Source of the DNA: Actinomycetes bacterium
Lineage (GTDB): Bacteria > Actinomycetota > Thermoleophilia > RBG-16-64-13
DNA length: 7,675 nucleotides
Reading direction: 5' to 3'
Assembly: GCA_021815245.1 (NCBI GenBank)
Contig: JAKAHF010000084.1
Span: forward strand, 1-7,675
Each line of letters opens with the position of its first letter. Within the stretch, counting starts at the first letter, position 1. The notes under the pieces are model-generated. The model made no database searches and had not been told where the DNA came from. It worked only from the letters and a program-made list of their open reading frames with translations. The position numbers and the translations under genes are program-made. Positions 1,255 through 6,427 of this stretch are shown here, one piece after another.

Positions 1255-1788
1255 ATGAGCGTTTCGTATGCACTTCTCGGCCTGCTCGAGCAGACACCCC
1301 GCCAAGGAAGTCACGGCTATGAGCTGAAGCGGCAATACGACCGGTACTTCGGTCGCGGCAAGCCCCTGCCGTACGGGCAGGTCTACAGCACCTTGTCGCG
1401 ACTCGTGCGCGACGGGCGCATCCTCGAGTTGGGCAGCGCCCCTGGGGAGGGTCCCGAGCGGAGGCTGTATTCCATCACCTCCGAGGGCGAGGACGCCTTC
1501 GGCACATGGCTCTCGACGCCGATGGTGCCTGAGGCCGAACTCCAAAGCCTTCTCGCCATGAAGATGACGCTTGCGCTTCTTCTCAACCGTCCCGCCGACG
1601 CCTATCTCGACGCGCAGCGTCACGCCCATCTCGAACGCATGCGACAGCTCACCGCTCAGCGGCGGGATAGCCCGCTCGTAGACCAGTTGTTGCTCGACCA
1701 CGCCTTGTTCCATCTCGAGGCCGACCTCCGGTGGATCGACCTGACCACCAGCCGCCTCGATAGACTCGCCAAGGAGTTGAAACCATGA
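1255..1788 (+). CDS. PadR-family transcriptional regulator
   Basis: A 177-aa PadR protein. The N-terminal winged helix spans about 1-85: MSVSYALLGLLEQ as helix 1, the recognition helix around PYGQVYSTLSRLVRDG (39-54), and the wing around PERRLYSITSEG (67-78). A C-terminal helical dimerisation region (about 95-175) resembles the Vir_act_alpha_C domain. The frame is open 54 nt further upstream, to a GTG at 1201, but that extension would be translated through the promoter and operator. The family also normally begins a few residues before 'LLGLL', so ATG 1255 is preferred. No SD precedes it, consistent with a leaderless message. It probably represses its own operon and is relieved by a ligand handled by the downstream ABC transporter; the ligand is unknown. 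Its TGA stop overlaps the next gene's ATG (ATGA). Confidence 0.92.
   Translation: MSVSYALLGLLEQTPRQGSHGYELKRQYDRYFGRGKPLPYGQVYSTLSRLVRDGRILELGSAPGEGPERRLYSITSEGEDAFGTWLSTPMVPEAELQSLLAMKMTLALLLNRPADAYLDAQRHAHLERMRQLTAQRRDSPLVDQLLLDHALFHLEADLRWIDLTTSRLDRLAKELKP
1771..1776 (+). promoter_or_regulatory. Ribosome binding site of the ABC ATPase gene
   Basis: AAGGAG lies 8 nt before ATG 1785, inside the end of padR. It is one of only two clear SD sequences in the window and fixes the ATPase start. Confidence 0.8.
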
Positions 1789-2498
1789 GTTCGGCCCTTC
1801 TCTCGTGCCGTGACATCCACCGCTCGTTCGGCTCGACCCCCGCCCTTCGTGGCGCCGACTTCTCAGCCGGCGCCGGCGAGATCGTGGCCATCATGGGACC
1901 ATCGGGATCGGGCAAGTCGACCTTGCTGCATTGCCTGGCAGGTATCCTGGTGCCCGATTCGGGAGAGGTGTTCTTCGAGAGCACGCGTGTGGACCGGCTC
2001 TCCGAATCGGAGCGAAGCAGACTGCGTCGCGAGAAGTTCGGCTTCGTGTTTCAGTTCGGACAACTCGTGCCCGAGCTCACCGCCGAGGAGAACATAGCCC
2101 TGCCGCTCCTGCTCGCCGACCGGTCGCGCGCCGAGGCTTTCGCCGCGGCGCGACCCTGGTTCGCAAGGCTCGGACTCGAGGGTCTCGAAGGCCGGCTTTC
2201 GAGCGAGCTGTCGGGAGGCGAGGGTCAACGTGTCGCCCTCGCCCGGGCACTCGTGGCCCAACCGCGCGTGCTCTTCGCCGACGAGCCCACCGGGTCGCTC
2301 GATTCGCTCACCGGCGAGCAGGTCATGAACCTCCTCGTCGACACCGCCCGCGAGCGGGGTACCACGGTGGTCGTCGTGACCCACGAGCCACGGGTCGCCG
2401 CCTACGCCGACCGGGAAGTCATGGTGCGCGATGGCATCGCAACCGGCGCGGGCTCAGTTGCCACCCGCCTGTTCGAGCTCTGTGGGACCTCGGCGTGA
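1785..2498 (+). CDS. ABC transporter ATP-binding protein (MacB/LolD/FtsE type)
   Basis: A 237-aa nucleotide-binding subunit that powers the FtsX-type permease encoded next. All catalytic motifs are intact: Walker A GPSGSGKST (38-46), Q-loop FVFQ with Gln90, signature LSGGEGQRVALARAL (142-156), Walker B VLFADEP with catalytic Glu (162-168), D-loop SLD (171-173), and the H-loop His200 in VVVVTHEP. The order and wording (GSGKSTLLHCLAGI, FADEPTGSLDS) are typical of the class whose permeases have FtsX domains and often act mechanically instead of pumping through a channel. The start overlaps the padR stop (ATGA) behind a good SD. Its stop overlaps the permease GTG (GTGA), so the three genes should be translationally coupled. 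Substrate unknown. Confidence 0.94.
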   Translation: MSSALLSCRDIHRSFGSTPALRGADFSAGAGEIVAIMGPSGSGKSTLLHCLAGILVPDSGEVFFESTRVDRLSESERSRLRREKFGFVFQFGQLVPELTAEENIALPLLLADRSRAEAFAAARPWFARLGLEGLEGRLSSELSGGEGQRVALARALVAQPRVLFADEPTGSLDSLTGEQVMNLLVDTARERGTTVVVVTHEPRVAAYADREVMVRDGIATGAGSVATRLFELCGTSA

Positions 2499-4714
2499 TC
2501 AGGCTTGGACTACGGCTCTCGTTGCGCGGAGCGCGCGAGGGCAAGGTCAGGCTGGCACTCACCGCCTTGGGTGTCGCGCTCGCCGTGACACTGCTGCTCT
2601 GCACGATCAGCGGCTTCAACGCTCTGAAGACGCGAGACGTCCGTTCGGGATGGACGACCACGGGCATCTCCAACCGCATGCCGAGCGTCAACGAGAGCTC
2701 GTCAGACGCGTTGTGGTGGCGGATATCGGCCGATCTCTACGACGGCGCCGGCATCACGATCGTCGACGTGGCCCCTACGGGGCCCAGGTCACCCCTGCTA
2801 CCGGGAATGTCGGTCTTGCCCGCTCCCGGGGAGTACTACGTGTCGCCGGCCCTGGCCCGGCTTCTCGATTCGACGCCGAACGACCTTCTGGGTGCACGAT
2901 TCCCCGGCACCCGAAGCGGGATCCTCGGAGAGGAGTTGCTCACGTCGCCTCAGTCCCTGGTCATGGTGGCGGGACACACGCCCGAGGCGTTGCAGCGGGC
3001 AGGCGACGCCGTGCAGGTGCGCAGCATCGAGAGCGCCCCGCGTGAGCACGACATCACCCTCGTGCTGAGGATCGCCCTGGGCATAGGAGCCATCGGCCTC
3101 ATGTTGCCGGTCATGGTCTTCGTCATGACCGCCACCCGGCTGGCGGCCGCGCGGCGCGAAGAGAGACTGGCGGCCTTGCGGCTCGTCGGCGCAACACCGG
3201 GGCAGGTGAACGTGATCGCAGCCGTCGAGTCGGTGCTTGCCTCGGTCGCCGGTACGGCTTTGGGCTACGTGTTCTTCTTCGCTTTCAGGCCACTCGTCGC
3301 CCTCATCCCGTTTACCGGGGAACGCTTCTTCACACAGGATCTGGCCCTCGGCCCGGTCGCGCTCGCGGGTGTGGCCATTGGAGTGCCGGTGGCGGCGCTG
3401 ATAGCCGGGCTGTTCACGCTCCGGCGGGTTCGCATCTCGCCCCTCGGGGTCACCCGCAAAGCCCCTGCCGGACGGCCACGGGCCGCGCGGCTGTTGGCTC
3501 TCGTAGCCGGACTGCTTCTTCTGCTTCTGCCGAAGGTGTTCGATAGCCCGGGAGTGCGCACCTACTTGATCTTCGTCGTGTTCGCGGGCATCGCCCTCGG
3601 CATCATGATCGCGGGCCCATGGCTGACGCATGTCGGTGGGCGGCTGCTCGGGGCTTTCGCCCGCAAAGACTCCACACTCATCGCCGCTCGGAGACTGGGC
3701 GCCGACTCCCGCCGGGCCTTCAGGGCCATCAGCGGGCTCGTGCTTGCGGTCTTCATGGGCACCGTCTTCGTCACCATGGTGGCAACAGCGATGAACGAGG
3801 GCAGTGGTTCGTTCCAGGCACACGACTTGCCCGCCGGCGCCGTGGTGCAGCCTCTCGACGCGGCGAGCGACAGCTCGCCTTCAGGCGAAGCGGCCGCCGA
3901 GTCGCTGGCCGCGCTGAGGTCCCTCGAGGGCGTCGAGGCGGTCGTGCCGGTCTGGAGAGTCGAGACTACGGTCGAGGCCTCTGACGCCACAGCCTACGGA
4001 AGACTGAGCGCCGACGATTGGCTGCTTCTGGGAGGAGCGCGATCCGACCTCGCAGCGGACGGCTATGGATTCGTGTATGTCGAGAATTCGGCCCATGGGT
4101 ACCTCTGGGTCGACAGACCGGCTGAGCTCGCCGCGGAGATCGGCGAAATCGCCAACCCCGTCGACATCACCGCAAGCGGGCTCGCGCAGGTGCTCGTGCT
4201 GACCGACGGCAGGCAGACGAGCGTCGACCGGGTGCGCACCGCACTCGAGGTCTCGCTCGGTGCCACCGTCCGTCCGTACTCCATCGCGGAGCTCGACGCC
4301 GAGTCGGCGTCGCTCCTCAACCTGCTCGGAAGGATGATCGACATCGGAGTCATCCTCTGTCTGGTCATAGCCGGATGCAGCCTCGCTGTCTCGGTCGCGG
4401 GAGGATTGGTCGAACGCAAACGGGCATTCGCTCTACTCCAGCTCGCGGGCCTGCCAATCCGGCGGCTCTATCGTTCGGTGCTACTCGAGGCCGCTGTGCC
4501 GCTGGTGCTGGCGGCCGTCATCTCGGCCGCCGTGGGCATGCTGGTGGCGTGGATGATCGTCTACACGACAGGCGGCGAGGTGGCTATGGCCACGCCCGGT
4601 AGCGGCTACTTCGCGATGATCGGAGGTGGTTTGGTCGCCGCTCTCGCGGTCGTTGCCGCAACCCTTCCGCTCGTTCGAAGAATGACCGACCCCGCCGTCG
4701 CCCGCATGGAATAG
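2495..4714 (+). CDS. FtsX-type ABC transporter permease, two FtsX domains, 10 TM
   Basis: A 739-aa membrane subunit partnered with the preceding ATPase. The frame is open far upstream across the ATPase gene, but the GTG at 2495 overlapping the ATPase stop gives the usual N-terminus (short basic stretch, then TM1). A weak GGGA lies 7 nt upstream. Predicted TM segments: about 18-40; 188-211, 245-268 and 286-308 (first FtsX domain); 331-347; 357-375; 408-430; 613-636, 664-690 and 704-726 (second FtsX domain). Each FtsX domain carries the characteristic cytoplasmic coupling sequence: RREERLAALRLVGATPGQ (220-237) and ERKRAFALLQLAGLPIRRL (640-658). Two outward domains lie at about 41-187 and 431-612. 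The arrangement fits drug or peptide-resistance (BceB-like) or lipoprotein-handling exporters. PadR control favours a resistance or envelope-stress role, but this is inference. Confidence 0.88.
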   Translation: MIRLGLRLSLRGAREGKVRLALTALGVALAVTLLLCTISGFNALKTRDVRSGWTTTGISNRMPSVNESSSDALWWRISADLYDGAGITIVDVAPTGPRSPLLPGMSVLPAPGEYYVSPALARLLDSTPNDLLGARFPGTRSGILGEELLTSPQSLVMVAGHTPEALQRAGDAVQVRSIESAPREHDITLVLRIALGIGAIGLMLPVMVFVMTATRLAAARREERLAALRLVGATPGQVNVIAAVESVLASVAGTALGYVFFFAFRPLVALIPFTGERFFTQDLALGPVALAGVAIGVPVAALIAGLFTLRRVRISPLGVTRKAPAGRPRAARLLALVAGLLLLLLPKVFDSPGVRTYLIFVVFAGIALGIMIAGPWLTHVGGRLLGAFARKDSTLIAARRLGADSRRAFRAISGLVLAVFMGTVFVTMVATAMNEGSGSFQAHDLPAGAVVQPLDAASDSSPSGEAAAESLAALRSLEGVEAVVPVWRVETTVEASDATAYGRLSADDWLLLGGARSDLAADGYGFVYVENSAHGYLWVDRPAELAAEIGEIANPVDITASGLAQVLVLTDGRQTSVDRVRTALEVSLGATVRPYSIAELDAESASLLNLLGRMIDIGVILCLVIAGCSLAVSVAGGLVERKRAFALLQLAGLPIRRLYRSVLLEAAVPLVLAAVISAAVGMLVAWMIVYTTGGEVAMATPGSGYFAMIGGGLVAALAVVAATLPLVRRMTDPAVARME

Positions 4715-4756: not shown

Positions 4757-5692
4757 CTAGACTCCGAACTCCGTGTTGAGGTAACGAACGGCGTGGTCGA
4801 CCGCGAGGGCGCCACGGGCACATGCCGTGACGACCTGCTTCAGCTCGTAATCGGCCACATCGCCGGCCGCGTACAGACCAGGCCGGGAGGACAGGCTGTG
4901 GCGGTCGACCATGACGAAGCCCTGTTCGTCGAGGTCGCACAGATCCTTGACGAGTTCACTCATCGCGTCGATGCCGACAAACTCGAAGAAGCCGTCCACC
5001 GGCAGCACCGTCACGGTGCCGTCATCGCGAGAGCGCAGCTTCAGACCCGTGATCTTGCCGCCCTCGCCCACGATCTCATCGACGACCTTGCCGAGGTGCA
5101 TGGTGATCTTCTCGTTGTAGAAGCACTGCTCCTGGAGACACTGCGTCGCGCGAAGCTCCCCGCGCCGGTGGATGAGGTGCACATGGCTCGCGATCTTCGA
5201 CAGGTACACCGACTCTTGAGTGGCCGAATCGCCGCCCCCCACGACCGCGACAACCTTGTCACGGTAGAGAGGCCCGTCGCAGGTGGCGCACCAGGAGACG
5301 CCGCGGCCCGCAAACTCGGCCTCCCCGGGGATGCCCAACTTCTTGGGCACCGCCCCCGTCGCCAGTATGACGACCCGCGCCTCGACATCGCCGTCGGACG
5401 TCGTGAGCACGTACTGCTTGCCGTCGGCGCGTATCGCCTCGACCGGCGAGATCGTCTTGAACTCGGCACCCGCGGCTTGAGCCTGCAGGAGCATGAGATC
5501 GGCCAACTGCTGGCCGGTGACGCCATCGGGAAAACCGGGGTAGTTCTCGACGATCGAGGCCGAGACGATCTGACCGCCGGGGAGGCCCGCTTCGAAGACC
5601 ACGGTGTTGACCCGAGCCCGTGCCTCGTGGATCGCCGCCGTGAGCCCGGCAGTTCAGCCACCAACGATCGCGATGTCGATGATCTCTCCCAC
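4757..5692 (-). CDS. trxB: Thioredoxin reductase with in-frame TGA at codon 13 (candidate selenoprotein or disrupted gene)
   Basis: NADPH-dependent thioredoxin-disulfide reductase, a cytoplasmic flavoenzyme, 311 codons from GTG 5692 to TAG 4759-4757, the usual family length. The reading runs GEIIDIAIVGG, then TGA, then TAGLTAAIHEARARVNTV. The TGA at codon 13 occupies the second glycine of the FAD-binding GxGxxG loop. Downstream all is intact: GLPGGQI (36-42), ENYPGFP, ATG (111-113), redox-active CATC with Cys135 and Cys138, NADPH-binding GGGDSA (152-157) and HRRGELRA (175-182), and GLYAAGDV (272-279) for FAD. The GTG start has an SD at 5698-5703 and lies 9 nt after the upstream gene's stop. 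Internal initiation, for example at GTG 5602, would delete the FAD loop, so no alternative start rescues the enzyme. Selenocysteine decoding, a GGA-to-TGA nonsense mutation and a base-call error all remain possible. TGA as a sense codon genome-wide is unlikely, because neighbouring genes end in TGA. No thioredoxin gene is in view. Confidence 0.85.
5609..5633 (-). promoter_or_regulatory. Candidate bacterial SECIS-like hairpin after the trxB TGA
   Basis: Counting bases after the TGA, positions +21 to +45 fold into a stem of 8 pairs with two bulges: G21-C45, A22-U44, bulged U23, C24-G43, C25-G42, bulged A26, then C27-G41, G28-C40, A29-U39, G30-C38. The 7-base loop GCACGGG starts at +31 with a G. 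Bacterial SECIS elements lie in the coding region just after UGA, with an apical loop within a few tens of bases, a G at its start and often a bulged U. This hairpin meets that loose description. GC-rich DNA forms hairpins easily, so the call is tentative. Confidence 0.35.
5654..5656 (-). other. In-frame TGA within trxB
   Basis: On the minus strand the codons read GGT GGC TGA ACT GCC GGG, giving Gly-Gly-stop-Thr-Ala-Gly. A single G-to-T change from GGA would explain it as a lost glycine codon. The frame is continuous on both sides and I see no frameshift nearby. Confidence 0.95.
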
Positions 5693-5697
5693 TGTTT

Positions 5698-5703
5698 CCC
5701 CCT
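5698..5703 (-). promoter_or_regulatory. Ribosome binding site of trxB
   Basis: On the minus strand AGGGGG precedes GTG 5692 by 5 nt and overlaps the TAG stop of the upstream gene. It decides the trxB start and shows that translation is meant to begin before the in-frame TGA. Confidence 0.7.
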
Positions 5704-6427
5704 ATCGGGCCGTTAGTTTCACTCCACGCAGTTCTACCGCGACATCAGACGTGTTGATCGTCAATACGAAGGGGCCCGTTTCTAGTCCATTGGCGACGAT
5801 CGCACCGATCTCGCCGCTGGTGCCCCGCAGACGCGCCCAGTATCCCACCTGCCCGGTGATAGCTCCATCGTAGTCGCCCGCGGAGATGTCCTCACCCACC
5901 ACGTAGATGCCGTCGGCGAAGATCGCCGGCTCTCCCGGCGCTGTGGTCGACGTAGCCGAGGAAGGCGGTGGTCCGCCTTGCCCGCTCCGCAGGTCGGCGA
6001 TCTCCGTTTCCAGCGCCTGGTTCTCCTGGTAGTAATTCCAGTTGCGCGCCTCCGACGCGGCCAGGCCGGTACGCACGGCGTCAAGCTGCTTGGTCATCTC
6101 GGCGAGCTCCTCCTCGCCGGCCGCGGACTGCGACTGTGCGATGAAGTAGCCGACCAGAGCTCCTACGAGAAGAAGCGCCAGCGCACCAAGGATCATGGGG
6201 AGAAAGCGCCTGACCCGCGATCGCCTCGTGCGGGCGATCGCCTGACCGGCCGGACGGGCCGCGGCCGCGGCGACGTTCGCCCGCTCGCCGACCGCTCCGG
6301 CGGCGCTCATAACGGGTTCGCGTTCGGCGGTACCACCGTCTTCGGACTTCGACGATTCTCCAAGCGAAACATCGCCTGGCGGGTCGCCCTTCTTGGGCTG
6401 GGGAGCCTCCAAGTCCCAATCGTCCAT
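5702..6427 (-). CDS. Membrane-anchored coiled-coil surface protein with C-terminal beta domain
   Basis: A 241-aa protein of unknown function. It has a charged, low-complexity N-terminus (about 1-65), a basic patch RTRRSRVRR (67-74 region), one TM segment (75-97), a likely coiled coil (about 104-147), a Pro/Ser/Thr linker (152-167) and a compact beta-rich domain (about 169-241). The positive-inside rule puts the N-terminus in the cytoplasm and the coiled coil and domain outside. The last domain (ADGIYVVGEDISAGDY, then GYWARL, IVANG and GPFVLTI) resembles a domain I associate with actinobacterial secreted proteins, with pattern 'G.Y.VG.DI.PG.Y...CYW.R'. Both cysteines usual there are absent (GYW for CYW; RGVK near the end). 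The frame is open further upstream to 6928, but that would run through the divergent gene; ATG 6427 directly follows a -10-like element. No SD is visible. trxB follows 9 nt downstream. Confidence 0.75.
   Translation of the reverse strand: MDDWDLEAPQPKKGDPPGDVSLGESSKSEDGGTAEREPVMSAAGAVGERANVAAAAARPAGQAIARTRRSRVRRFLPMILGALALLLVGALVGYFIAQSQSAAGEEELAEMTKQLDAVRTGLAASEARNWNYYQENQALETEIADLRSGQGGPPPSSATSTTAPGEPAIFADGIYVVGEDISAGDYDGAITGQVGYWARLRGTSGEIGAIVANGLETGPFVLTINTSDVAVELRGVKLTAR

Follow-up and report, generated by a model that had tools for sequence, protein, structure and literature searches.

The minus-strand frame at 5692-4757 of the window, the whole 7,675-base contig analyzed here, reads as a thioredoxin reductase gene interrupted by a single in-frame TGA, which raises the question of whether that codon specifies selenocysteine, marks a recent lesion, or is an error in the sequence. 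The frame runs over 311 codons from a GTG start, which is preceded on its 5' side by a Shine-Dalgarno-like AGGGGG (5698..5703, minus strand), to a TAG end. The TGA occupies codon 13 (5654..5656, minus strand) and is followed by 298 sense codons before the TAG is reached. Both the redox-active site CATC (codons 135-138; 5279..5290, minus strand) and GGGDSA (codons 152-157; 5222..5239, minus strand), which we take to be the NADPH-binding motif, are intact. These features had been described in the original prediction and were confirmed in the sequence.

Open reading frame, homology, and neighborhood identify 4757..5692 as a trxB-like frame of the NADPH-dependent, low-Mr thioredoxin reductase type that is broken at codon 13. 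When the TGA was read through, the top NCBIfam match was TIGR01292 (thioredoxin-disulfide reductase) with 322.7 bits, below the cut-off of 343.45. The nearest proteins were 84-86% identical, with the best other protein among the matches listed at 86%. Full-length homology, CATC, and GGGDSA are all present, the neighborhood is shared with relatives, and the GxGxxG of the FAD loop is interrupted by the TGA. While length, CATC, NADPH motif, neighborhood, and identity to the closest relatives are all as in other TrxB proteins of TIGR01292, the frame of the window carries the TGA of codon 13 together with three odd codons close by, and its score is under the cut-off. The gene order of the window (lipid kinase, trxB, two small open reading frames, and weak MFS fragments) is repeated in one related genome, G003, and parts of it occur in G001, G002, and G045.

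The surroundings of the TGA were compared in an alignment of 119 of the best 120 listed homologues (8,000 scored), from which the window's own truncated protein was left out. Codon 13, the stop in the window, is G in 118 of the 119 homologues and H in one, in agreement with the earlier placement of the TGA at the second glycine of GxGxxG. Codon 14 is T in the window and P in 119 of 119, codon 22 is H in the window and Y in 119 of 119, and codon 23 is E in the window, with G in 106, A in 11, and S in 2 of the homologues. Counting the stop, seven residues of the query are absent from all 119 homologues (codons 13, 14, 22, 23, 79, 202, and 261), and four of the seven fall within the 11 codons 13-23 (5624..5656, minus strand), with a permutation p of 0.003 for a stretch that was picked after seeing the data. 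Codons 1-12, 15-21, and 24-311 are normal save for the scattered unseen residues at 79, 202, and 261. The view that the gene holds no second lesion therefore had to be given up, as codons 14, 22, and 23 also carry residues unseen in the homologues.

Outside codons 13-23, identity of the query to P0002-P0006 is 83-86%, and these five share 84-89% with one another; because the values are alike, no decay is seen elsewhere in trxB. The lipid kinase gene at 222-1169, the sole neighbor examined in this way, shows no clustering, with 3 of its 315 codons giving an unseen residue, so the oddity appears to be local. By the genetic code, one substitution from a codon for a family residue accounts for each of the four odd codons. 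Two other origins were considered and set aside. A long-standing pseudogene was rejected, as the remainder of trxB evolves like intact relatives, and a chimeric read or contig is unlikely, as close relatives agree with the sequence on either side and also with codons 15-21 in between.

Codon 13 was also followed among the relatives. At the 12 loci read at this site (34 were fetched), glycine followed by proline was found in all 12. A protein search with read-through over 399 genomes of the class gave matches in 393, and none of the matches listed had an internal stop. Within the order (18 genomes), an internal TGA occurred in a single listed row, which belonged to a distant flavoprotein that is not TrxB. 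When the TGA form was searched for as an exact DNA pattern, which does recover the window's own site as a control, 0 of the 399 genomes had it. Cysteine at codon 13 was found in 0 of the 119 aligned homologues, so that the expectation of close homologues keeping TGA or Cys at this codon was not borne out among the matches listed. The genomes G001-G004 had one close TrxB each among the matches listed, and its loss would for this reason probably be costly.

The closest relatives are equipped for selenocysteine. SelB was above the cut-off in 6 of 6 genomes (G001-G006). Among the seven genomes G001-G005, G045, and G088, tRNA-Sec was above the cut-off in five (G001-G005), SelA was present in six, SelD was above the cut-off in six, each with one TGA, and FdhA was above the cut-off in four (G001-G004), again each with one TGA. 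G045 lacked SelA as well as SelD and tRNA-Sec above the cut-off. G088 has SelA and a Sec-type SelD, but its tRNA-Sec was below the cut-off or absent. To judge from these gene sets (selA, selB, tRNA-Sec, Sec-type selD, and fdhA), the nearest relatives G001-G004 are predicted to decode UGA as selenocysteine. The lineage of the window is probably Sec-using, though the gaps in G045 and G088 mean that the trait may not extend to the whole order. The absence of selB/selC from the genome had been named as a ground for dismissing selenocysteine; looked for in the relatives, selA, selB, tRNA-Sec, and selD are present in G001-G004, and this ground is thus not borne out there.

The same relatives supplied a native control for the SECIS element, consisting of 10 UGA sites: four in fdhA (G001-G004) and six in selD (G001-G004, G088, and G005, a Coriobacteriia record). 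With the T of TGA counted as nt 1, all 10 have a hairpin of 5-8 bp just after the UGA, whose loop starts at nt 21-24 and opens with GG or GU. A strict hairpin filter was derived from these same 10 sites, which therefore pass it by construction, and its chance rate was 110 of 2000 shuffles and 10 of the 193 TGA trinucleotides in the window. Under this filter, no hairpin in the native register was found at the UGA of the window's trxB. The fdhA and SelD genes of the relatives thus share with the window's trxB an in-frame TGA inside an otherwise intact gene, whereas the hairpin with its GG or GU loop at nt 21-24 is theirs and is lacking at trxB. The longest hairpin at the trxB site is a short one, CTGCCG/GGCTCA/CGGCGG (5635..5652, minus strand), whose stem begins one base past the UGA and whose loop at nt 11 is out of register for a SECIS element of this lineage.

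A much looser definition (a 4-bp hairpin of any kind whose loop, at nt 19-41, shows a G in either of its first two positions) fits trxB with a loop at nt 40, but also 1853 of 2000 shuffles, and is for that reason uninformative. The strand at 5665-5600 folded no better than its shuffles (z 0.24). Folding energies at the same place in the intact trxB of L001-L004 were between -15.8 and -18.9 kcal/mol, much like the -19.7 kcal/mol of the window, and the strict SECIS filter was passed by 0 of these 4 intact genes. An Rfam scan of the window gave nothing at the gathering score.

The family glycine at codon 13 contacts the FAD phosphates in TrxB structures, and the site belongs to the FAD phosphate loop and not to the redox site. 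In all three of the best PDB alignments, codons 13, 14, and 22 correspond to G, P, and Y. In TrxB, a side chain at codon 13 is likely to impair FAD binding, and a selenocysteine standing alone there would seem to have no evident redox partner. Another flavoprotein of the wider superfamily allows a comparison. On contig 74 of G027 (21963-22823; L109 564-1424), a CoA-disulfide-reductase-like flavoprotein has an in-frame TGA within SYAG-U-GIPY, in a UGxP motif that we take to hold the redox-active cysteine of such enzymes. This protein is a likely true selenoprotein, and its genome belongs to the order of the window's relatives. It is 26% identical to the window's trxB and shares with it an in-frame TGA, but its selenocysteine would lie in the UGxP motif and comes with a hairpin (7 bp, loop CGGGTC at nt 25), whereas the TGA of trxB lies in the FAD loop. 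The hairpin would fail the strict filter, as its loop opens with C, though its register is close to the native one. The FAD loop of L109 is GGNAAG, in which N takes the aligned place of codon 13, the second glycine of TrxB. The second glycine is therefore not required in every related flavoprotein, and the steric argument against selenocysteine is slightly weakened; the odds of selenocysteine are left unchanged, as it is the SECIS comparison and the homologues that determine them.

In its Table 1, the 2026 inventory PMC13188914 lists a CoA-disulfide-reductase-like family with the UGxP motif, and UGxP and HxxU are the motifs of the two entries that it calls FAD-dependent oxidoreductases. Among the 119 families and subfamilies of that table, an NADPH thioredoxin reductase with selenocysteine does not appear. 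PMC2398784 cautions that a lone TGA case among metagenome reads can stem from a sequencing error; singletons were accepted there as true because each was a known selenoprotein with a strong SECIS element. In contrast to those singletons, the window's trxB is neither a known selenoprotein nor accompanied by a strong SECIS element. A literature search found no paper that brings selenocysteine and an in-frame TGA together with the FAD-binding glycine of a thioredoxin reductase.

Of the three options originally offered for the TGA, the selenocysteine-containing variant found no support, with no TGA among the TrxB matches listed, no cysteine in the alignment, and no SECIS element of the lineage type in register, while a recent mutation and a base error both stand. 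The extra odd codons at 14, 22, and 23 speak for a local error in the sequence, or for clustered mutations, more than for one clean nonsense change. Local consensus error is ranked as the most likely explanation, a real and recent mutation cluster as the next, and selenocysteine as unlikely. With four odd codons in 33 bases of an otherwise normal gene, a local base-calling or consensus error in the metagenome contig is preferred, and we hold it to be probable, though by no means assured, for the TGA and its three odd neighbors together. The gene would then be an ordinary one for NADPH thioredoxin reductase, probably intact in the uncultured actinomycetote itself; the four changes would be absent from the organism, and coverage would be thin at that stretch. 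GGT GGC directly precedes the first two odd codons, and an inverted repeat sits between the two odd pairs. PMC3622629 describes Illumina miscalls that follow GGC or GGT motifs or inverted repeats, although Illumina may not be the platform of this contig, and it also states, against the error reading, that GGC and GGT by themselves are no reliable predictors of errors. The four inferred changes are all non-synonymous, which likewise counts against an error because random errors should include silent ones; for silent changes and for an independent copy from the species, no near-identical DNA was found for comparison, the best protein being 86% identical. The rival of a real and very recent lesion supposes a cluster of mutations in one strain that truncates trxB after 12 residues, with the rest undecayed for lack of time. 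Error-prone repair can yield clustered multi-base mutations, and the frame is otherwise intact and normally conserved, as such a lesion would leave it. However, it needs four hits in 33 bases at near-invariant sites with no like excess elsewhere in the gene, at a locus whose loss the single close TrxB of each near relative suggests to be costly, and the lesion is common to none of the relatives' listed TrxB matches and, as an exact DNA pattern, to none of the class genomes. A true lesion is accordingly regarded as possible but doubtful.

If UGA at codon 13 were selenocysteine in the FAD-binding loop, the changes at codons 14, 22, and 23 could be read as compensation for it, the lineage could presumably decode it, the loop of L109 offers a precedent for losing the second glycine, and a hairpin of the loose definition is present. 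PMC9312934 adds that certain bacterial SECIS elements deviate from the consensus model. Since the lineage can decode selenocysteine and some SECIS elements are atypical, a small probability is kept for this reading, but it is very unlikely given the missing native-type SECIS, the want of an internal stop or a cysteine among the homologues compared, the position of the codon in the phosphate loop, and its absence from the inventory table. In its most explicit form, the second glycine in the FAD loop of a TrxB would be replaced by selenocysteine, without the usual SECIS of the lineage, with T14, H22, and E23 as compensating residues, and in a cofactor-binding instead of a catalytic role; this we think extremely improbable. 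If it were true, this selenocysteine of the FAD-phosphate loop would be an exception, as the residue usually replaces a redox-active cysteine. A restart of translation at the GTG of codon 31, where an open frame of 281 codons begins, would give a working N-truncated protein and let codons 13-30 drift freely. Yet no residue at codons 15-21 or 24-30 is foreign to the homologues, no clear Shine-Dalgarno sequence was seen before that GTG, and the FAD phosphate loop would be missing from the product, all of which makes a restart highly improbable. Were UGA assigned to a standard amino acid by a changed code or a suppressor tRNA, the choice of glycine, for example, would restore the family residue. 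Three neighboring genes (222-1169, 1255-1788, and 1785-2498) nevertheless end at TGA, the lipid kinase ending in this way has 315 residues, the same as its closest relative P0122, and codons 14, 22, and 23 would be left unexplained. Nor is a UGA-reassigned code known from actinomycetotes with genes of 64-68% G+C. A changed code is considered the least probable reading of all.

On the preferred reading of a local error, the case shows how an apparent selenoprotein can arise in a metagenome contig whose lineage probably uses selenocysteine. Comparison with the lineage's own SECIS elements and inspection of the neighboring codons for odd changes help to distinguish such mimics from true selenoproteins.

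The gene content around trxB was also recorded. On the minus strand, 5702-6427 encodes a protein with a C-terminal domain of the Rv1352/Rv1906c type (NF053833); this gene adjoins trxB and is partly kept at G002 and G003. On the plus strand, 1255-4714 holds a regulator gene, presumably PadR-like, an ABC ATPase with a LolD-like match, and a 739-codon open reading frame that we assume to be permease-like and that had no NCBIfam match; they overlap by a few bases in an operon-like arrangement. Among the homologues, a leave-one-out count over all 120 rows showed a denser cluster of unseen residues than that of the window in P0116 only, in the same region of the protein. Within codons 5-13 of P0116, a TrxB whose contig measures 1,091 bases, eight residues occur in no other homologue, and this too is probably a local error of the sequence that affects the same motif. 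In P0005, from a 1,028-base contig, the first glycine of GxGxxG at codon 11 is V, which is perhaps an error as well.
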